From NCBI GenBank assembly GCA_030670545.1, contig DAOVBM010000007.1:1-46216 (forward strand): 46,216 nucleotides of DNA, written 5' to 3'. Both the position numbers and the translations under genes were made by a program. Positions 12,330 to 44,044 of this stretch are shown piece after piece. Origin of the DNA: Candidatus Woesearchaeota archaeon. Its GTDB lineage: Archaea > Nanobdellota > Nanobdellia > Woesearchaeales > JAGLGH01. The first letter of the stretch is position 1. Every line of letters starts with the position of its first letter. The notes below the pieces were generated by a model. The model was not told where the DNA came from. It was given only the letters and a program-made list of their open reading frames with translations, and made no database searches.

Positions 12330-14206
12330 AAATTATTCATAAACTCCAGCAATATTCTGTAGAAAAGAACATAAATGAGAATGCAGGCTTCATGATCTGC
12401 AATGGAAGGGGAAGCTATTTCTCCAAGGGAATCAACAGCAGGTACAGCGGCATGTTCTGTTATATAGATGGAGAGATGTACAGGATTCTTGATTCTGTAT
12501 CAAACAGAGATGCTTCCAGAAATCCTATAAGGAAAATTACAAATAATCTTTCAGGTCTTGATGTTTCTTTCAAGTCACATGAGCAGGCTTTTTTTATACC
12601 TCATGGATTTGATGTGCTTGCCTGCTCCATGAAAAAAGAGCAGCCAGTTAATATAAAGTTTGATGTCCGCAAGTCATATGACCTGAGGAAATGGGGAAAG
12701 GATTACAGGATATATGAGGAAGGGGATTATATCATCATCGAGTTCACAAAAAAGACAGACAAAAGGGAAGATGATTCACATGGAAAAACAGAAGATAAGC
12801 TGTACATTGCGATATGCGGGGATAATATAAGATATAAGCTGGCAAATAAATGGGTAAGTAAACAATACGCTTTTGATATGAACAGAGAGTCAGGGCCATC
12901 AGAATGGTATGTGTATGAAGGCCTGCATATACTCGCTGAGAATATTATAATCTCTGCTGCAAAAGACAAGAAGGATGCTGTAAAAAATGCAGGTTATGTA
13001 AAAAAGAATCTTGAAGCATTGAAAAAAAAAGAAAAGAAAAGGATAGAAGATTCATTTGTAAAGATCGCAGGGAATAAAGAGCTTTCATTTGCATATAATC
13101 TTGCATCGCAGAGCATGAAAGACCTTTGTATTGGGTTATCAGATTCAGGCAAAAGTATGCAATCAAATGGAGAGCCAGGTATATTTGCAGGTCAGCCATG
13201 GTTCTTCCAGTTCTGGACAAGGGATGAAGCTATATCACTCAAATCACTTCTGCTTCTGAAAGAGTACAGGTTCTGCAGCGATGTACTGATGAGAGAACTG
13301 AAAGCAGTAGGATCTAATGGAAGGATTCCAAACAGATTTCCTGCTACGGATATTGAGACTGCTGATGGCACAGGGTGGATGTTCAGGCGGTGTGCAGACC
13401 TGAGAGACATTCTTGATAATGAAAAAAAGAGGAGGCTTAAAAAGAAATATTTCAGCAGCTTTTTCAGTGGATATGCCAAAGGACAGATAGAAAAATCATT
13501 GAAGCTCCTTTTCCAGAATTTCACTTCTGCAGATCTTGACAAATTTGCGCTTAACAAACCTCAGGAGACCTGGATGGATACTGTATGGGACGGAGACAAC
13601 CGCGCAGGAATAAGGATAGAGATACAGGCTTTGAGGCTTGCGATGTACAAGATTGCTTATGAACTAAGTGGGAAAGAAATATTCAGGAATCTTGAAAGAG
13701 GACTGAAAGCAAAAGTAAAGGAAAAATTCTGGAATGGAAGTTATCTTGCAGATGGGCTTGATGACTGGACAATAAGGCCTAATGTTTTCATAGCAGCCTA
13801 CATATATCCTGATCTGCTTTCAAAAAAGGAATGGAAAAAGTGCTTCAGCACAGTGCTGCCTAAGCTCTGGCTGCGGTGGGGAGGGATTGCGACAATCGAT
13901 AAGGGAAACCCACTTTTCTGCGCTGAATATACTGGAGAGACACCACAGAGCTATCACAGAGGGGATTCATGGTTCTGGATCAATAATCTTACTGCGATTG
14001 CAATGGCAAGGGTTGATAAAAAGTACTTTAAGAGCTACATAGACAGGATTCTCAATGCCAGCATTAAAGACATATTATACAAGGGCTTCATCTGCCACCA
14101 CAGCGAATTGAGCAGCGCTTCAAAACAGAAAGCAGAAGGCTGCTTATGCCAGGCATGGAGCAATGCAATGTTCATAGAGATGGTGCATGAGCTTTATAGT
14201 ATGTAA
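12326..14206 (+). CDS. Glycogen debranching enzyme (amylo-alpha-1,6-glucosidase, GH133)
   Basis: The N-terminal region (FMICNGRGSYFSKGIN) matches the GDE_N domain, and the C-terminal half is an (alpha/alpha)6 glucosidase. QPWFFQFWTRDEA, ETWMDTVWDGDNRAGIRIE and YHRGDSWFWINN are the conserved blocks carrying the catalytic acids. The length of 626 residues matches archaeal GDE. It is coupled to the GalT-like gene by an ATGA overlap. The stop codon (14204-14206) lies inside the outer arm of a dispersed palindromic element, so the last residues and the stop may have been set by that insertion. Confidence 0.92.
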   Translation: MKIIHKLQQYSVEKNINENAGFMICNGRGSYFSKGINSRYSGMFCYIDGEMYRILDSVSNRDASRNPIRKITNNLSGLDVSFKSHEQAFFIPHGFDVLACSMKKEQPVNIKFDVRKSYDLRKWGKDYRIYEEGDYIIIEFTKKTDKREDDSHGKTEDKLYIAICGDNIRYKLANKWVSKQYAFDMNRESGPSEWYVYEGLHILAENIIISAAKDKKDAVKNAGYVKKNLEALKKKEKKRIEDSFVKIAGNKELSFAYNLASQSMKDLCIGLSDSGKSMQSNGEPGIFAGQPWFFQFWTRDEAISLKSLLLLKEYRFCSDVLMRELKAVGSNGRIPNRFPATDIETADGTGWMFRRCADLRDILDNEKKRRLKKKYFSSFFSGYAKGQIEKSLKLLFQNFTSADLDKFALNKPQETWMDTVWDGDNRAGIRIEIQALRLAMYKIAYELSGKEIFRNLERGLKAKVKEKFWNGSYLADGLDDWTIRPNVFIAAYIYPDLLSKKEWKKCFSTVLPKLWLRWGGIATIDKGNPLFCAEYTGETPQSYHRGDSWFWINNLTAIAMARVDKKYFKSYIDRILNASIKDILYKGFICHHSELSSASKQKAEGCLCQAWSNAMFIEMVHELYSM

Positions 14207-14504
14207 TAAGTTTACTATTCTTAGAGCAGTAGCATCATCAGGTCAAAACTCCTTCGATTAGGATATCCTGCTCGTCGCGGGGGGTTGTCCCCAAATTTTA
14301 ACAAAATTTGATAAAAGGTGGTGTGACACAAGGTCACACTTCGCGGCTCGTCTGCTTAGACTCTCAAAGCCGCGTAGTGGAGCTTCATGCTCCACATTGC
14401 GTGTCAACCGAGCGTAACCAGTTGACGGGGACGCAGAGCCGTCCAAAAACACTTCCTGAGTTTTGAAGATGCTACTGCTATTTTATATATAACTTATTAC
14501 ATAC
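14199..14504. mobile_element. Dispersed palindromic element, copy 1 (long form)
   Basis: Outer arms GTATGTAATAAGTT (14199-14212) and AACTTATTACATAC (14491-14504) pair perfectly. They are flanked by the direct repeat GCTTTATA (14191-14198 and 14505-14512), an 8-base target duplication. The inner arms AGCAGTAGCATC (14225-14236) and GATGCTACTGCT (14468-14479) also pair perfectly. Between the shared core blocks CTGCTCGTCGCGGGG and GGGGACGCAGAGCC lie five small hairpins: AAATTTT/AAAATTT, GTGTGAC/GTCACAC, GCGGCT/AGCCGC, GTGGAGC/GCTCCAC and GTCAAC/GTTGAC. No protein is encoded. It fills the whole gap between the debranching enzyme and the NUDIX gene. Confidence 0.82.
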
Positions 14505-14547
14505 GCTTTATAGTAATTACCTTAAATGAGAATCAGAGTAAAGCAAG

Positions 14548-15750: not shown

Positions 15751-15924
15751 ATAAGTAAAAAGTCTGCTATTCAAGGAGCACCAGCATCATCAGTCAAAAC
15801 TTAATCCTTTTCCTTATCCTGCTCGTCGCGGGGGGAAGCCCCATCCGGGGACGCAGAGCCTCCTAATAACCTATCCTAAGTTTTGAAGATGCTTGTGCTC
15901 TGTTACATTTGACTTTTTACTTAT
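15751..15924. mobile_element. Dispersed palindromic element, copy 2 (short form)
   Basis: Outer arms ATAAGTAAAAAGTC (15751-15764) and GACTTTTTACTTAT (15911-15924) pair perfectly. TGTAAAAC flanks both ends (15743-15750 and 15925-15932), an exact 8-base target duplication; the match runs on by four more bases. Inner arms GAGCACCAGCATC and GATGCTTGTGCTC pair except for one position. The core CTGCTCGTCGCGGGG and GGGGACGCAGAGCC are joined directly, without the hairpin block of copies 1 and 3. It lies in the 420-base gap between the divergent uS15 and PAC2 genes; the rest of that gap holds the uS15 promoter and leader and an AT-rich stretch before PAC2. Confidence 0.82.
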
Positions 15925-23189: not shown

Positions 23190-24332
23190 TTATTTGCCAA
23201 GCAAGCTTTTCAGCTTTCTTAACTCTTCTTCAAAGAAAGACTTTTTCTTTTCAACATCACCAAATATCTTTTCAAGCTCTATGATATTATTGCTTACATC
23301 CTTGTCTTTTGCTGTTATCTGGAATGCCTGCGCTTTCTTGATAGCATCCTTAAGCTTATTCTCCAACTCATCCCTGTCCTTATTAATCCTTGTCAATAGC
23401 TCTTCTATCTTCAGCTTCTGGTCAAAGAATTTCTGGAACTTTTCAGTCACTTCCCTGCTCTCCTTTAGGTCTTTTTTCTGCTTTGACAGCTTGTTGAGAA
23501 TCATGTCCTGCATCTTCTCTATCTCTTTTCCTTTTGATCTTGCCTCTTCAACAACAGGAATCAACTTATCTTTTTTTGATTCTATATCTTTCTTTATCTT
23601 GTCAGAAAAATCTTTCAGATTAGTGATGTGATCATGATATTTCCTGATGACATCGTCCTTTCCTTTTATCCTGTCTTCAATATTGTCAATGGAATCCTTC
23701 ATGCTTTCAATCTGTTTATACAGCTTTTTTTCCTGTTCTTCAAGCGCAATCGAATCCTTTTCCTCTTCAATAAGCATTATCTCCTCTTTCCCAATCTCCT
23801 TGATAAGATCAGTGTATTTCCTTTGCTCATCCTTTATTTTTAAATCATAGTCCTGGAGCGACTTTTCCATGCTTTTTCTCTGATTCATCAGTTTTACATC
23901 AAGATCTGATTTGAGCTCATCATATTTTTCAAGTTCTTTCAGCTCATCCTTAACTTTGTCTATTTCAAATCCCAACTCTTTCTTCAGCTTGTCAAACTCT
24001 GTTTTTGCGCCTTTTAGTTTTTCTCCTTCCTTCTTAATGAAATTAAGAGATACTGATGCCTGATTCAGGAACATTTCTCTCTTGCTCTTGAACTCTTTTG
24101 CTTTTGTGAGAAGTTCCCTTTTTGATAGTTTCTTATATACAAGATAAGGAACTGTCAGCCTGTACTCTATGGTAATAAGATCCTCCTCTTCAAGAAACTT
24201 TATCCAGTCCCCTATTACATTCTTGCTGACCCCAAGCTCTTTTGAAACATTAGGAAGGGATACCCTACCTCTTTCTTTTACAAGACTTATAAGCTTGTCA
24301 ATTCCTGTTTCAATTAAAGAATGGTCACTCAT
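23190..24332 (-). CDS. Winged-helix protein with long coiled coil
   Basis: Residues 1-75 form a winged-helix DNA-binding domain (RGRVSLPNVSKELGVSKNVI then GDWIKFLEEEDLITIEY). From about residue 80 to the end the protein is one long coiled coil rich in Lys, Glu, Leu and Asp, without membrane segment. It is placed between the N-anchored pilus protein and the TadA ATPase on the same strand, which suggests a role in control or scaffolding of pilus genes. Alternatively it may be a chromosome-binding filament protein. No precise family is recognised. Confidence 0.72.
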   Translation of the reverse strand: MSDHSLIETGIDKLISLVKERGRVSLPNVSKELGVSKNVIGDWIKFLEEEDLITIEYRLTVPYLVYKKLSKRELLTKAKEFKSKREMFLNQASVSLNFIKKEGEKLKGAKTEFDKLKKELGFEIDKVKDELKELEKYDELKSDLDVKLMNQRKSMEKSLQDYDLKIKDEQRKYTDLIKEIGKEEIMLIEEEKDSIALEEQEKKLYKQIESMKDSIDNIEDRIKGKDDVIRKYHDHITNLKDFSDKIKKDIESKKDKLIPVVEEARSKGKEIEKMQDMILNKLSKQKKDLKESREVTEKFQKFFDQKLKIEELLTRINKDRDELENKLKDAIKKAQAFQITAKDKDVSNNIIELEKIFGDVEKKKSFFEEELRKLKSLLGK

Positions 24333-24380: not shown

Positions 24381-24783
24381 GTATGTGATAAGTCATATAT
24401 CTGGGAGCACCAGCATCTTCAAATCTTGATGAGCATAGCTCATTAAGTCTTGAGGAACAAGGTTCCTTAAGAACTTAGAAGGCTATGCCTTCCAAGTAAC
24501 TTAGAGAGCTTTGCTCTCCAAGTACTCTGCATGTGTTTTTAGAAGGCTCTGCGTTCCCGGCAACTGGTTACGCTCTGTTGACACGCAAAGTGGAGCATGA
24601 AGCTCCACTACGCGGCTATTAAGTCTTATTTAAAGCCGCGAAGTGTGACCTTGTGTCACACCACCTTTTATCAAATTTTGTTAAAATTTGGGAGCATCCC
24701 CTCGCGACGAGCGAGATGTAAAAATCGAAAGAGTTTTGACCTGATGATGCTAGTGCCCCCTCAACAGTAGACTTATCACATAC
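24381..24783. mobile_element. Dispersed palindromic element, copy 3 (longest, inverted core)
   Basis: Outer arms GTATGTGATAAGTC (24381-24394) and GACTTATCACATAC (24770-24783) pair perfectly. Flanking octamers TAAAAATT and TGAAAATG agree at six of eight positions, as for a decayed target duplication. The core is the reverse complement of copy 1, including the GTGGAGC/GCTCCAC, GCGGCT/AGCCGC and GTGTGAC/GTCACAC stems and the GAACGCAGAGCC block. It contains extra sequence at 24425-24523 with four small hairpins. It fills the 460-base gap between two minus-strand genes and encodes no protein. Its right end is nine bases from the stop of 24793-25758. Confidence 0.8.
24425..24523. repeat. Ladder of four small hairpins inside copy 3
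   Basis: Four near-identical stem-loops start at 24425, 24449, 24473 and 24499. Each has a 10-11 base stem and a three-base loop. The outer stem is constant (CTTGA/TTAAG or ACTTAG/CCAAGT). The inner stem changes from unit to unit but stays complementary: TGAGC/GCTCA, GGAAC/GTTCC, GAAGGC/GCCTTC, GAGAGC/GCTCTC. Such matched changes suggest that folding is what is kept. Confidence 0.8.
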
Positions 24784-24792
24784 TGAAAATGT

Positions 24793-25758
24793 TTATATAC
24801 ATTCAACATTATATGTGTTTAAATGATAATTATCATCATTATCAAGCCGGAACCATTCATATCCTGTTTCATTGAATGTCTCGTTTATAATACAGCTGCT
24901 TATTGATACATTGCTGAAATATATATAATCCACTGCGCTTGCTGTCTTTATGTCCAGACCTTGTATCATAAGCTTGTCAAAATTGACTATGCTCTCTATA
25001 CCCATAGTAGAATTTGAAAGATTGCCTTCAAGCCTCATCAGGAAGCTCGGACCGTGCTCAGAGGCTATATAATAAGAGTTTGCCAGATGCTGCTTGAGCA
25101 CATCAAGATTATCAAAATCTGTCTGATTTGCTCTTATGATCTTGTTTACTATCTTGTTATATGTATTCAGGCTGGACACAGGATCCTCAAGCCCAATTAC
25201 GCTAATCTGTGTGATTATATGTCTTGTTCGCAGCCAGCTTGCTGTTTTCCTCTTGTCAGTGACATTGAACAATATATCTACCTCAACATTTACTGTCCAT
25301 GGATCTGACTGGTTGATTGTAATGTTTGATGCAGTGAAATCTATGATTATGTCAATCTTATCAGCCTCTTCTTTTATCTTCTCCATCCAGTCTGGAAAAG
25401 ATGCACCCTCCAGTAGAGGATTACTTTCATTCATCACTGTTGCATTGAGAAGAGCCTCTTTAAATGCTGAGTCTATGTCTGGTATGAATGAGTTGTTGGA
25501 TGTGATGAAGTCTTCTATAGCAAGAAGCGACCTGAAGCTGGAAATATAGAGCCCTCTGTTTATATCTGTCTCAACATCTTTGATAAAGTCGCTTATTGTA
25601 CTGACCCTTGTCTCTATCACAAACATGGAATCCCTGTATACGTATCCAGTATGTATTGTAAATGAATAGACAATCAAGGATACAAGGCCAATGGCTATGA
25701 ATGTGAAAAAGACTCCTTTCCGGTTAAAAGATTTGCGCGGCGAATTTTTTACTGCCAA
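24793..25758 (-). CDS. N-terminally anchored extracellular protein of the pilus locus
   Basis: The N-terminus has basic residues followed by a hydrophobic segment (KGVFFTFIAIGLVSLIVYSF), like a pilin-type signal or an uncleaved anchor. The remaining 285 residues contain about ten N-x-S/T sites, as expected outside an archaeal cell. No known domain is recognised. It starts with TTG; GAGGTGA lies four to five bases before it. It overlaps the vWA-protein gene by ten bases, so the two are translated together and probably form part of the same surface structure. Confidence 0.75.
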   Translation of the reverse strand: MAVKNSPRKSFNRKGVFFTFIAIGLVSLIVYSFTIHTGYVYRDSMFVIETRVSTISDFIKDVETDINRGLYISSFRSLLAIEDFITSNNSFIPDIDSAFKEALLNATVMNESNPLLEGASFPDWMEKIKEEADKIDIIIDFTASNITINQSDPWTVNVEVDILFNVTDKRKTASWLRTRHIITQISVIGLEDPVSSLNTYNKIVNKIIRANQTDFDNLDVLKQHLANSYYIASEHGPSFLMRLEGNLSNSTMGIESIVNFDKLMIQGLDIKTASAVDYIYFSNVSISSCIINETFNETGYEWFRLDNDDNYHLNTYNVECI

Positions 25759-30266: not shown

Positions 30267-30304
30267 TTTATGCCACATTTTTTATTTTAGGTGGAGATAT
30301 TTTC

Positions 30305-30432
30305 ATAATTATTTAGTCTGTTATTTAAGAACCACCAGCATCAACTAAACAAACCAGTTGCCAGAGACGCAGAGCAAAACTCATTAAGATTTGAAGATGC
30401 TACTGCTCTTTGATATATGATTGATTACATAC
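30305..30432. mobile_element. Dispersed palindromic element, copy 4 (degenerate)
   Basis: The shared inner arm ACCACCAGCATC, the block CAGTTGCCAGAGACGCAGAGC (split here between core and stem) and the closing TTTGAAGATGCTACTGCT are present, but most of the middle is lost. The outer arms ATAATTATTTAGTC (30305-30318) and GATTGATTACATAC (30419-30432) no longer pair, and no target duplication is visible. It lies between the divergent pilin and surface-protein promoters. Confidence 0.65.
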
Positions 30433-30446
30433 CCTCTGGCAAAACA

Positions 30447-30454: not shown

Positions 30455-30543
30455 ATAGCTTATATAAAAGGAATATTAAAGGGATTTGTCGCAGAGATGC
30501 TCGTAAAGGAGTCATATTTATTGAATGATCAATGGAGAAAAAT

Positions 30544-32673
30544 ATGAAAAAAACAATACTTTTATTGGTGATTTCTGTTGTTTTGGCAGGGGTTGTTTAT
30601 GGAGAAGGAACATCATATTTCATTAAAGCTGTTGGAGGCGAGAGTCATGATTTGGGTTATTCTGTTGCTCAAACAAATGATGGGGGTTATATTGTAGCTG
30701 GTAATTCACAAAGTTATGGTGGTTTAGATTCTGATGTTTTGATTGTTAAATTTGATAGTAATGGTGGGGAGCAATGGACCAAAACAGTAGGGGGAGATAG
30801 TAGTGATGCAGCTAAGTCTGTTGTGCAAACAAGTGATGGGGGTTATATTATAACAGGACAATCCTCAAGTTATGGTGGTTCAGATGCTGATGTTTTGATT
30901 GTTAAATTTGATAGTAATGGGGTTGAGCAATGGACCAAAACAGTAGGAGGAGATAGTGGTGATTATGGTAATTCTGTTGCACAAACAAGTGATGGTGGAT
31001 ATATTGTAGCTGGATCTTCATATAGTTATGGTTCAGATAATCAGGATTTATTAATTGTTAAGTTTGATAGTGATGGAGTTGAGCAATGGCTTAAAGTTGT
31101 TGCAGGACCTTATGTAAATTATCCTGAGTTGGGTTATTCTGTTGCTCAAACCAATGATGGAGGTTATATTGTGACAGGTAGTTCAGCAAAGTATAGTGGG
31201 GGATATGCTGATTTATTACTTGTTAAAGTTGATAGTGAGGGGATTGAGCAATGGACTACAACAGTTGGAGGAGATAACACAGACAGAGGTTATTCTATTG
31301 CGCAAACAAGCGATGGAGGTTATATTGTGACAGGTACTTCACAAAGCTATGGCGGTCCAGATACTGATCTTTTGCTTGTTAAATTTTATTCTAATGGAGC
31401 TGAACAATGGACTAAAACAATAGGAGGAGATAGTAGTGATTATGGTAAGTCTGTCGCTCAAACAAGCGATGGAGGATATGTTGTAATTGGTTATTCACAA
31501 AGTTATGGTGGTTCAGATGCTGATGTTTTGATTGTTAAATTTGATAGTAATGGAATTGAACAATGGACTAAAACAGTTGGGGAGGATAGTAGTGATTATG
31601 GTTATTCTGTTGTGCAAACAAGCGATGGAGGTTATATTATAACAGCTAATTCATATAATGGCATAGATTATGATTTTTTGCTTATACGTCTTGATGAAAA
31701 TGGTACTGGTTTAAGTGATTGTTTAGCAATAGCAGATGAAACAGTAACAGAAGAGAGTCATAGTGTAACAGCATTGATTCATGCAACAACAGAACAAAGT
31801 TATAGTGTAACAGAAGAAAATCATATAGTGACTGAGCAAAGTCATGATCCAGTGGAGACAATTATTTGTGTTGCAGCAGCTGGTGAAACAATTCCCACCT
31901 ACTCAAGCTTCACATCTCCAGAGACAACAAACTTTTCAGAAGAAACTAATCTAACAGATGTAACAAACTTAACTCTTGCAATTGAAAACAAAGGTAAAAT
32001 CCAGTTTGCAGATGACTATGGAATAAACGCAGAGAACCAGGATTATGACGCAAACATTGTAATTGAAGACGGATCAATTTCAATCGATACATCTGCTTTG
32101 GATTCAACATTCAACAATTCTGCAACATTAACATTCTATAATATTGACTGTAATTCTCCTTTGGTATATTATTCAGATACAGAAACAACAAGATATAATA
32201 TTCTTACAGAAGACAACCAATGTCTTGCTCCAAGATGTACAAACATACAATGTACTGGAACAACACTAACAGTAGATGTTTTGCATTTCACTGGTTATGC
32301 AGTAAGCGGAAGCGTAAACCTGACAATTGATGCAGATGACCCTAAATTTGTTCTTGAAGATGTCACATTCACAGCAGTTTATATGAATCTGACAGGCGGA
32401 TTTATAGCTGGAGCAACATGCTATATCAGCTTTCCTGATGGAAGCTATATCATGGACGAGCAAGCAGACCATTACAACTATACAAAAGCTTTTGCAGCAG
32501 CGCAAACAGTTGACTATAATGTAACATGCAGTAAAACAGGATACAACACAGTATTTGCAAATGATACTGCAATCATCAATGATATTCCAGTTCCTGAGTT
32601 TTCATTATTAACATTAGGTATTGGATTGATAGCTGTGTTAGCAGGATTAATAATCATCAGAAAAAAAAGATAA
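30544..32673 (+). CDS. Seven-repeat surface protein with PEF-CTERM anchor
   Basis: A signal peptide (KKTILLLVISVVLAGVVYGE) is followed by seven repeats of about 52 residues, each with DGGYI(V/I)-x-G, SYGG-x-D and EQWTKTVGG. They resemble delta-60-type repeats and may form a seven-bladed propeller. A short degenerate linker rich in VTE, SHS and TEQS follows (about residues 400-440). After it comes the same 260-residue C-terminal module found in the two FISUMP proteins, ending in PVPEFS, a hydrophobic stretch and RKKR. I start at ATG 30544, since GGAG at 30534 is well placed; ATG 30532 is in frame. Probably exported and anchored by an archaeosortase. Confidence 0.88.
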   Translation: MKKTILLLVISVVLAGVVYGEGTSYFIKAVGGESHDLGYSVAQTNDGGYIVAGNSQSYGGLDSDVLIVKFDSNGGEQWTKTVGGDSSDAAKSVVQTSDGGYIITGQSSSYGGSDADVLIVKFDSNGVEQWTKTVGGDSGDYGNSVAQTSDGGYIVAGSSYSYGSDNQDLLIVKFDSDGVEQWLKVVAGPYVNYPELGYSVAQTNDGGYIVTGSSAKYSGGYADLLLVKVDSEGIEQWTTTVGGDNTDRGYSIAQTSDGGYIVTGTSQSYGGPDTDLLLVKFYSNGAEQWTKTIGGDSSDYGKSVAQTSDGGYVVIGYSQSYGGSDADVLIVKFDSNGIEQWTKTVGEDSSDYGYSVVQTSDGGYIITANSYNGIDYDFLLIRLDENGTGLSDCLAIADETVTEESHSVTALIHATTEQSYSVTEENHIVTEQSHDPVETIICVAAAGETIPTYSSFTSPETTNFSEETNLTDVTNLTLAIENKGKIQFADDYGINAENQDYDANIVIEDGSISIDTSALDSTFNNSATLTFYNIDCNSPLVYYSDTETTRYNILTEDNQCLAPRCTNIQCTGTTLTVDVLHFTGYAVSGSVNLTIDADDPKFVLEDVTFTAVYMNLTGGFIAGATCYISFPDGSYIMDEQADHYNYTKAFAAAQTVDYNVTCSKTGYNTVFANDTAIINDIPVPEFSLLTLGIGLIAVLAGLIIIRKKR

Positions 32674-39297: not shown

Positions 39298-41421
39298 ATG
39301 CTTAAAAAAACAATCTCATTAATATTTATGGTTATCTTGATGGCAACTTTTGTTTCTGCAGAATGCCCTTCTGGGATGGTCAGCTACTGGACTTTTGATG
39401 ATGCTGATATTTCTGGGGATACTGTTTATGATACTTTTGGTAATAATGATGGAACTAATAGTGGTGCAACAACTGGTGTTACTGGGCAAGTGGGAGAGGC
39501 GTTTTATTTTAATGGAGTTAATTCCTTTGTTGTGGTGCTTGATGATGATAGTTTGGATCTGACGGATAATTATACAATAGGACTCTGGGCAAAATGGGGT
39601 GGAGTTGGAAATTATAATTTTATTATAACCAAAAAAGCCACATCGTATCTTCAAGCAAGTGGTTATTTATGGTATAGAACCGTTACTCTAGATGATTTCT
39701 ATACTAATGGTTATATGCGAACTAATTATGAAGCTCCAAGCGGATGGAATCATTATGTCGGTGTGCTCGAGGATGGTGTCGCTAGAGTATATTATAATGG
39801 TGAATTTAACAATTCCAAAACTCTAGGTGTGGCTACTGCGAATACAGATAATTTGATGTTCGGTCGCAGGGCACATGGACCTAGTTATGCGGAGGGGTAT
39901 ATGGATGAAGTAGCAATCTTTAACCGGGCTTTATCTGCATCTGAAATAAGTGATTTATATGATTGGGGTGTTGCTGGAAATGGTTACTGTGAAGAACCTG
40001 AACCTCCTGCTCCTTTCAGTTGTGGCGACACTGTATCTTACGAAGGTCAAAATTATAACACTGTCTTAATCGGAGAGCAGTGCTGGTTTGCAGAGAACTT
40101 GAATGTTGGGACAAAAATGGATGACTCAATTGATCATACCAATAATGCTGTAATAGAAAAATATTGCTACAATAATGATGAAAATATTTGCACAACAGAC
40201 GGTGGCTTCTACCAATGGGATGAGGTAATGAATTATTCTACAACAGCTGGTGCCAAGGGTATCTGCCCCACTGGCTGGCATATTCCAACTGATGATGAAT
40301 GGCATACACTTGAAAATGGTCTGGCAACTGGCACCTGCGACTCTACCAGAGATGGCGCATTTGATTGCGACCCGGCTGGAACAGCCCTTAAAGAAAATGG
40401 TTCATCAGGTTTTGAAGCTCTTATGACTGGCTACCGGTGGTATACTGGTACCTTCCGTAATAGTGACGCGGACACATACTTCTGGTCATCGTTGGAGTCT
40501 GGTTCGACTGCATTGGCACGTCTTTTCAGTTCTGGCGAATCTGAGACTCAGCGTTACTCTGGCATGAAAACGTTTGGTTTTTCTGTACGCTGCCTATACA
40601 ATGAAGATGTAACAGCAACAACAACTCCAACCACTTCAAACTTTACATCCGAAGAAACAACAAACTTCTCTGAGGTTGCTGATATAACAAACGTGACAAG
40701 CTTAACTTTAGCAGTAACAGGCAAGGGCAAGATTGAATTTGGAGAGGATTATGAGATGAATTGCGGTAACCAAGATTATGACACTCATGTAAAGATAGAA
40801 GATGAATTCATATCAGTTAATACTGCTGCTCTTGATGAAAGCTTTAATACTTCTGCGACAATAACTTTAGAAGGTGTAACGTGTCCTGTTGAGACAATCA
40901 CATATCAGGAAGGAACATTTACATCAAAGGATGATATAATCGCAGGAGGAAAGAACTGTGAATTAGATGGAGTCTGTTCAAATATACAATGTACTAGAAC
41001 AACACTGACATTTGATGTTGCTCACTTTACTGGATTCGCAGCAGGAGCAGATGCTAATTTAACAACCCAAGCAGAAGCAGGAGTATTCTATCCTCTTGAT
41101 CCAATTGAATTCACAGCAGAATACATAAACTCAACAGATGGAACTCCAATCTCTGGTGAATGTAATATCACATTTGATGATGATTGGGATACAGAGTATA
41201 TAATGGATTTTGACACTGATTATAACTACACAAAATCATTTGCAGCATCCGGAACACATAAATACAATGTGACATGCTCATCTGTAAACTTTGTAACACT
41301 GGAAGCAAATGATACAAAGCTTGTGAGCAGCGTTGATATCCCTGAGTTTTCAATAATGACTTTAGGATTGGGATTGGTTGCTGTACTAATTGGATTGTTT
41401 ATAATCAGAAGAAAGAAATAA
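39298..41421 (+). CDS. LamG/FISUMP surface protein with PEF-CTERM anchor
   Basis: The full-length 707-residue paralogue of the gene at the window start. A signal peptide (MLKKTISLIFMVILMATFV) is followed by a LamG-type sugar-binding fold (about 25-230; YWTFDD, FNRALSASEISDLYDWG). A FISUMP domain (about 240-436; GEQCWFAENLNVG to GFSVRC) comes next, then the shared C-terminal module, and finally IPEFS, a hydrophobic helix and RRKK. Parts of the FISUMP and anchor modules are nearly identical in DNA to 1-1563, while the stretch before GFSVRC differs strongly. Probably an exported adhesin or receptor. Confidence 0.9.
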   Translation: MLKKTISLIFMVILMATFVSAECPSGMVSYWTFDDADISGDTVYDTFGNNDGTNSGATTGVTGQVGEAFYFNGVNSFVVVLDDDSLDLTDNYTIGLWAKWGGVGNYNFIITKKATSYLQASGYLWYRTVTLDDFYTNGYMRTNYEAPSGWNHYVGVLEDGVARVYYNGEFNNSKTLGVATANTDNLMFGRRAHGPSYAEGYMDEVAIFNRALSASEISDLYDWGVAGNGYCEEPEPPAPFSCGDTVSYEGQNYNTVLIGEQCWFAENLNVGTKMDDSIDHTNNAVIEKYCYNNDENICTTDGGFYQWDEVMNYSTTAGAKGICPTGWHIPTDDEWHTLENGLATGTCDSTRDGAFDCDPAGTALKENGSSGFEALMTGYRWYTGTFRNSDADTYFWSSLESGSTALARLFSSGESETQRYSGMKTFGFSVRCLYNEDVTATTTPTTSNFTSEETTNFSEVADITNVTSLTLAVTGKGKIEFGEDYEMNCGNQDYDTHVKIEDEFISVNTAALDESFNTSATITLEGVTCPVETITYQEGTFTSKDDIIAGGKNCELDGVCSNIQCTRTTLTFDVAHFTGFAAGADANLTTQAEAGVFYPLDPIEFTAEYINSTDGTPISGECNITFDDDWDTEYIMDFDTDYNYTKSFAASGTHKYNVTCSSVNFVTLEANDTKLVSSVDIPEFSIMTLGLGLVAVLIGLFIIRRKK

Positions 41422-43869: not shown

Positions 43870-44044
43870 GTAAGTAAAAAGTCTGCTACTCAAGGAGCAC
43901 CAGCATCATCAGGTCAACACTCTCTCGATTTGGAAGTCCTGCTCGTCGCGAGGGGTCGCTCCATCCGGGAACGCAGAGCCCTCTAAAAATACATCTAGAG
44001 TTTTGAAGATGCTTGTGCTCAGGTATATCTGACTTTTTACTTAT
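43870..44044. mobile_element. Dispersed palindromic element, copy 5 (short form)
   Basis: Outer arms TAAGTAAAAAGTC (43871-43883) and GACTTTTTACTTA (44031-44043) pair perfectly and match copy 2. Flanking octamers GATAAATG and GAAAAATT agree at six of eight positions. Inner arms GAGCACCAGCATC and GATGCTTGTGCTC and the core CTGCTCGTCGCGAGG and GGGAACGCAGAGCC are as in the other copies. It lies in the 390-base gap between cysK and pyruvate kinase and ends 11 bases from the stop of pyruvate kinase. The rest of the gap (43664-43869) is AT-rich, with two TTGATAAAT repeats near 43830 and 43860. Confidence 0.8.

Follow-up and report, generated by a model that had tools for sequence, protein, structure and literature searches.

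A hairpin ladder in an archaeal MITE-like element as a probable nested pair of 50-bp double-hairpin mobile elements

The window analysed here, a stretch of 46,216 nucleotides corresponding to contig C50 of a 1.48-Mb archaeal draft genome in 88 contigs (G000), harbors a ladder of four hairpins that is probably a nested pair of non-autonomous 50-bp double-hairpin mobile elements, which would move with the help of an HUH-type step. The ladder consists of two inverted pairs, each measuring exactly 50 bp, with one of them lying at the centre of the other, and it is carried by a long element of a MITE-like family (family A), which is the host of the ladder and not the finding itself. The gene content of the genome is archaeal in type, with topoisomerase VI A and B, GH57 and a T2SSE ATPase. 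The ladder and its immediate host are organised as follows:

24424 to 24448, minus strand: unit 1, reverse; arms ATGAGC/GCTCAT around loop ATA; forms the left half of the outer 50-bp pair
24448 to 24472, minus strand: unit 2, reverse; arms AGGAAC/GTTCCT around loop AAG; forms the left half of the inner 50-bp pair
24473 to 24497, plus strand: unit 3, forward; arms GAAGGC/GCCTTC around loop TAT; forms the right half of the inner pair
24499 to 24523, plus strand: unit 4, forward; arms GAGAGC/GCTCTC around loop TTT; forms the right half of the outer pair
24448 to 24497, plus strand: inner 50-bp double-hairpin element, flanked by CTCATTAAG and AACTTAG, which belong to the outer pair
24424 to 24523, plus strand: complete 100-bp insert, the inner pair nested in the outer one, at site CTTCAAA^ACTC of the host element
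24381 to 24783, plus strand: host, a long family-A MITE-like element of 403 bp with terminal inverted repeats GTATGTGATAAGTC / GACTTATCACATAC
24561 to 24690 (approximate limits), plus strand: module B, about 130 bp of further hairpins, situated in the loop of a host GC hairpin

Each unit is a hairpin of 25 nt with a 3-nt loop, constant feet (CTTR...YAAG) and an inner stem that differs from the others and is always matched, with 6/6 Watson-Crick pairs in all four units. The region folds far better than its shuffled versions, both as RNA (-47.9 kcal/mol, z = -6.94, 0/200 shuffles as good) and as DNA (-26.5, z = -6.89). A preliminary description of this DNA, which had recognized four stem-loops with changing but matched stems, constant outer stem halves and a constant loop length, was thus borne out by the inner pairing and the fold (z = -6.9), and the unit starts that it gave (24425, 24449, 24473 and 24499) are correct within one base. 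It had missed the inversion of units 1-2 relative to units 3-4, the constant mismatch at positions 5/21 and the cause of the 24/24/26 spacing of the units, which is the spacing expected when one 50-bp pair interrupts another at its junction. Indeed, units 1-2 stand in the reverse complement orientation of units 3-4, and the junction of the outer pair, CTCATTAAG/AACTTAG, is found uninterrupted in copies with two units. Read in one orientation, the general unit of 25 nt is N-S-TTA, N6, a 3-base loop nnn, N6', CAA-S-N, in which the 5/21 mismatch (G·T, or A·C on the opposite strand) is present in every ladder unit and in 37 of the 40 TT..AA-footed units recovered by a scan that did not use the mismatch as a criterion. 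The loops of family units, in forward reading, always begin and end with a pyrimidine, three unrelated A+T-rich matches excepted. The upper stem is variable (13 distinct perfect arms) while loop polarity and mismatch are fixed.

The 403-bp host lies between two genes of the minus strand, 23190-24332 and 24793-25758. Family A is considered MITE-like because of its terminal inverted repeats and its 8-bp target duplications, of which GCTTTATA and TGTAAAAC are located in the window and AACAATCC and CAATATCC elsewhere; its terminal repeat GTAWGTAAWAAGTC has 144 matches in G000 versus 6 for a control. No autonomous partner with the same terminal repeats, that is, no pair of repeats separated by 1-2.5 kb, was found among those of the 144 terminal-repeat matches that were listed. 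Four further copies in the window lack the ladder:

14199 to 14504, minus strand: family-A copy with module B; 8-bp duplication GCTTTATA at 14191-14198 and 14505-14512
15751 to 15924, minus strand: short family-A copy; target duplication TGTAAAAC
30300 to 30434 (approximate limits), minus strand: degenerate or deleted family-A copy
43870 to 44044, minus strand: short family-A copy

The host family has the appearance of a mosaic in which hairpin modules are nested. Module B (copies L002-L012) comprises five hairpins in the loop of a CCCCG-GGGG hairpin and is present or absent among family-A copies, and two more hairpin modules, of about 54 bp (L013, L015) and about 46 bp (L011), behave alike. 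Another hairpin-bearing insert, starting with TCATRGAAATCC and ending with TTTTTCGTGTAA, occurs in copies L017, L019 and L090, where no accompanying TnpB gene was found. Contigs C4, C15, C21, C25, C43, C56 and C58 end inside module B, so that the assembly breaks at family-A repeats and copy numbers are lower bounds. The window also encodes three paralogous ORFs (190-1563, 30532-32673 and 39298-41421) with stretches 71-86% identical, the second of which bears 156-nt tandem repeats at 30645-31733; these probably correspond to repeated surface-protein domains.

The length of the insert at the family-A site CTTCAAA^ACTY, measured in 46 copies at this one insertion site, takes exactly three values, 0 bp (29 sister copies, with the empty form CTTCAAAACTY), 50 bp (12 copies) and 100 bp (5 copies). 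Units always occur as [rev][fwd] pairs, 50 bp per pair, and in the 100-bp insert one 50-bp pair separates the CTCATTAAG of a second pair from its AACTTAG. On a tree of family-A copies built without their insert, the presence of the insert requires 11 state changes, compared to a mean of 11.2 with shuffled labels, and at least 5 of them are forced by well-supported branches; such a scatter needs repeated gain or loss, or exchange among copies, and the patchy distribution could come in part from gene conversion or recombination among MITE copies. This exchange would also serve a different explanation, which we consider very unlikely, in which the ladder was ancestral to the MITE, the forms with two and zero units are deletions and only the MITE moves. 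Four units could indeed be reduced to two by deletion between TTAAG or AACTTAG repeats, and recombination among copies could scatter the states. However, besides the scatter of the insert on the MITE tree, 50-bp pairs are also found outside family A, beside tRNA genes (C66:3681), on C68 and C69 and at several loci of G001, a sister genome of the same genus, and copies nested in loops (GAGCAAA[50]GCTC, GAACAAA[50]GTTC) have no flanking direct repeats that would allow a precise deletion. A second repeat family carries 50-bp pairs as well (C69:16231, C66:10153 and C31); with ends TTTCAAATA..TTCTAATC, it is represented with such pairs by loci L026, L053, L059 and L060.

The clearest matched empty and filled sites are provided by G001. 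On its contig C27, the empty site GAGCAAAGCTC is an intact unit loop, GAGC-AAA-GCTC, which is filled on C377 as GAGCAAA[50]GCTC, the near flanks being shared. On contig C51, the host ...CTGTCATTC^CAACTTGGG... carries just one pair; contig C49 has this host and pair together with two more 50-bp pairs, of which one follows AAA in the loop and the other follows TTAAG at the junction (TTAAG^A). Similarly, a pair lies within the loop of another unit on C31 of G000 (GAACAAA[50]GTTC). In all empty/filled and nested cases the inserted length is 50 bp and the target bases are never duplicated, and the ends of the insertion are unambiguous since the element starts and finishes with T and the flanks do not. 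The insertion site is loosely conserved and mostly AAR, with A at -2 in about 12/19 cases and A or G at -1 in 18/19 (hand count). Insertion into the centre of its own kind implies that ladders are extended at their centre and take the form rev(n)-fwd(n). A six-unit ladder on C48 of G001, rev-rev-rev-fwd-fwd-fwd, with a perfect middle and a mutated outside, is what growth from the centre predicts, and no rev-fwd-rev-fwd array was seen among the ladders examined.

Among 18 distinct 50-bp pairs, stem changes comprise 40 two-sided cells, a single one-sided cell and a single unpaired one, counts that come from related sequences and hence from events that are not independent. Overall, 99.7% of cells pair and two-sided changes affect 13 of the 21 base pairs, a level reached by 0/500 shuffles, with 0-2 pairs in slid controls. 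The view that this is not simple tandem duplication with drift is therefore upheld by the covariation of the stems (40 two-sided versus 1 one-sided changes), and simple tandem duplication is rejected as well by the inversion of the units about a centre. When long-form copies elsewhere were compared, their stems were intact, the broken ones being isolated decayed copies (C77 and the outer units of G001:C48).

Strong fold and strong covariation, together with a location between two genes of one strand, may suggest a structured RNA, a transcribed non-coding RNA whose stems are kept by selection at the RNA level and whose units were multiplied by duplication. We regard this as quite unlikely. RNA-level selection tolerates G·U and is expected to leave G·U intermediates, yet only one G·U-type one-sided change is seen versus 40 two-sided ones, and this near absence argues against a constraint on RNA only; on DNA, such intermediates would count as damage since G·T is A·C on the other strand. 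Moreover, the units are found in settings unrelated to one another (family A, family B, near tRNA genes, each other's loops), both strands fold equally well, and Rfam gave no match over the ladder but only over neighbouring tRNAs. Two-sided changes with a fixed mismatch and a fixed polarity point instead to recognition of hairpin DNA. A comparable division of labour is known from Escherichia coli, whose TnpA-REP needs the mismatch of the REP stem and reads the upper stem non-specifically, as a structure (PMC8266576).

As to the origin of the matched stems, it had been proposed that they reflect either selection on structure or a copying process that writes both arms together, such as snap-back synthesis. 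In its full form, the copying explanation needs no transposition: snap-back or template-switch synthesis would by itself write both arms and add units at replication. Two-sided changes do predominate, and compensatory changes produced by template switching are documented (PMC8794818). We nevertheless judge this explanation to be very improbable. Copying of whole hairpins would remove the mismatch and flip the loop, whereas the 5/21 mismatch is never erased and the loop polarity never flipped, which argues against such copying; furthermore, the arms differ mainly by single base pairs and not as random new stems, and the pairs end exactly at 50 bp at many unrelated sites. Of the original proposal, the covariation is thus real and the making of whole hairpins by snap-back is not retained; the ladder arises by nested insertion of 50 bp and not by writing one unit after another. 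An arm-to-arm correction confined to the upper stem would be compatible with the data.

In the mechanism that we favour, the 50-bp element inserts precisely and without target duplication, mostly just 3' of AAA or AAG, and it also inserts into its own kind, in the loop at AAA or in the foot at TTAAG. By analogy, single-strand transposition by an HUH nuclease acting in trans is the best mechanism we can infer, on the basis of the lack of target duplication, the hairpin ends, the short A-rich target and the use of hairpin loops as targets. The element would thus move as single-stranded DNA through an IS200/REP-like nuclease. Such a nuclease may recognize the foot and the mismatch and, in the upper stem, pairing irrespective of sequence; upper stems could then change only in matched pairs, perhaps aided by local template-switch correction.

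No transposase with ends matching the 50-bp pair was found in the carriers searched. The sole Y1 gene of G000 is complete and IS200-like (L109, G000:C82:5836-6282), and two truncated copies of the ends lie on C47 and C48. This IS200 was rejected as the mobiliser, its CTAYTGGTC hairpins, its end TTATTTGAC and its target all differing from those of the pair. No Y1 gene was detected in G001, the genome of which is 86% complete, and no TnpB in the four carriers searched. In G242 and G252, two carriers of a variant pair, the Y1 elements have no matching hairpins, and Y1 loci of relatives yielded only three isolated unit-like matches and no pair. An enzyme outside the known HUH, DDE and TnpB types, reading hairpins and inserting 50 bp into loops and junctions to form branched self-nested palindromes, appears unlikely. 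That a DDE transposase, for instance that of family A, mobilises the pairs in trans is extremely improbable: pairs and family A occur in one genome and many MITE copies bear ladders, but family A duplicates 8-bp targets where the 50-bp pairs duplicate none, and the pairs share no terminal sequence with family A.

A search of 288 relatives with a covariance model of the 50-bp pair gave strong matches in four genomes only, G000, G001 and, from another family of the order, G242 and G252, and weak ones in five more; a phylum-wide sample of 371 genomes, overlapping the 288, revealed no further carrier. The exact hairpin of unit 1 was not found in the viral contigs searched. The pair of G242 and G252, TCTCG-GGAATC-AGA-GATTCC-TGAGA followed directly by AGTTA-GAAAGC-TTT-GCTTTC-CAACT, has the same size and mismatch as that of G000 and a different foot. 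Longer hairpins flank it, with stems that vary between copies and mostly remain matched. Loci L161-L208 of G242 and G252 are composite elements, ATATACTAAAAG...CTTTTAGTATAT; they contain long hairpins that surround a conserved TTCGAA loop and have stems that differ widely between copies and are mostly still matched.

The closest known kinds are the bacterial REPINs, the haloarchaeal PATEs and SMRs, and the mitochondrial double-hairpin elements. Like the pairs, REP, REPIN and BIME sequences with TnpA-REP (RAYT) are short imperfect palindromes arranged as inverted doublets, clustered and intergenic (PMC3116915, PMC3733652, PMC8266576), with matched stem changes and, in E. coli REPs, a stem mismatch; the 25-nt units in [rev][fwd] pairs correspond to the REP format of a 20-40 nt imperfect palindrome in inverted doublets. 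On the contrary, the unit N-S-TTA...CAA-S-N lacks the 5' GTAG/GGAG (or CGTC) tag at the hairpin foot, no cognate TnpA-REP flanked by the same repeats was found at the Y1 loci of G000, G242, G252 and relatives, and the pairs have an archaeal-type host, a 50-bp doublet without spacer and recursive insertion into their own loops and junctions. In a 2018 survey, Y1 proteins of Archaea were only of the IS200 subclass (PMC6006769).

PATEs, which derive from IS605 in Haloquadratum, are also archaeal, with palindromes near their ends, no target duplication and no transposase, and include terminal-only forms of 52 bp, similar in size to the pairs (PMC3119063). The pairs likewise insert without target duplication 3' of a short motif, albeit a loose one, mostly AAR. 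PATEs however have no terminal inverted repeats and resemble the IS605 ends of their genome (PMC3119063), whereas the pairs have inverted ends, the IS200-like hairpins and ends of G000 differ from theirs, and neither an IS605 nor a TnpB with such ends was found. As no REP tag, no cognate RAYT and no ends shared with an IS605 were found, the pair is assigned to neither REPs nor PATEs. The SMRs represent the closest archaeal parallel, and for them, too, no mobiliser has been found (PMC3119063): SMR-A of Haloquadratum has terminal inverted repeats, generates no target duplication and inserts into palindromes of other elements, all of which is found for the pairs, but it measures about 110 bp and no self-nesting covarying ladders are described for it (PMC3119063). 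Double-hairpin elements and GC clusters of fungal mitochondria, as cited in PMC7218506, consist of two adjacent hairpins and are optional and apparently mobile; the likeness is drawn from this description, and they differ by being mitochondrial. Finally, host family A fits MITEs by its terminal inverted repeats and 8-bp duplications, whereas the ladder shows no target duplication and has unrelated ends. The 50-bp pair works like a REPIN, a PATE or an SMR.

Covarying hairpin ladders that resemble structured RNA would thus have a concrete origin in the nested insertion of very short mobile DNA. Covariation, the usual proof of a functional RNA, can come from recognition of DNA, and what tells the two origins apart here is that G·U intermediates are lacking and that mismatch and loop polarity are fixed. 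The pairs would extend REPIN- or PATE-like biology to an archaeal lineage with small genomes, and their empty and filled sites are ready for testing how hairpins read by a transposon evolve and which enzyme mobilises them.
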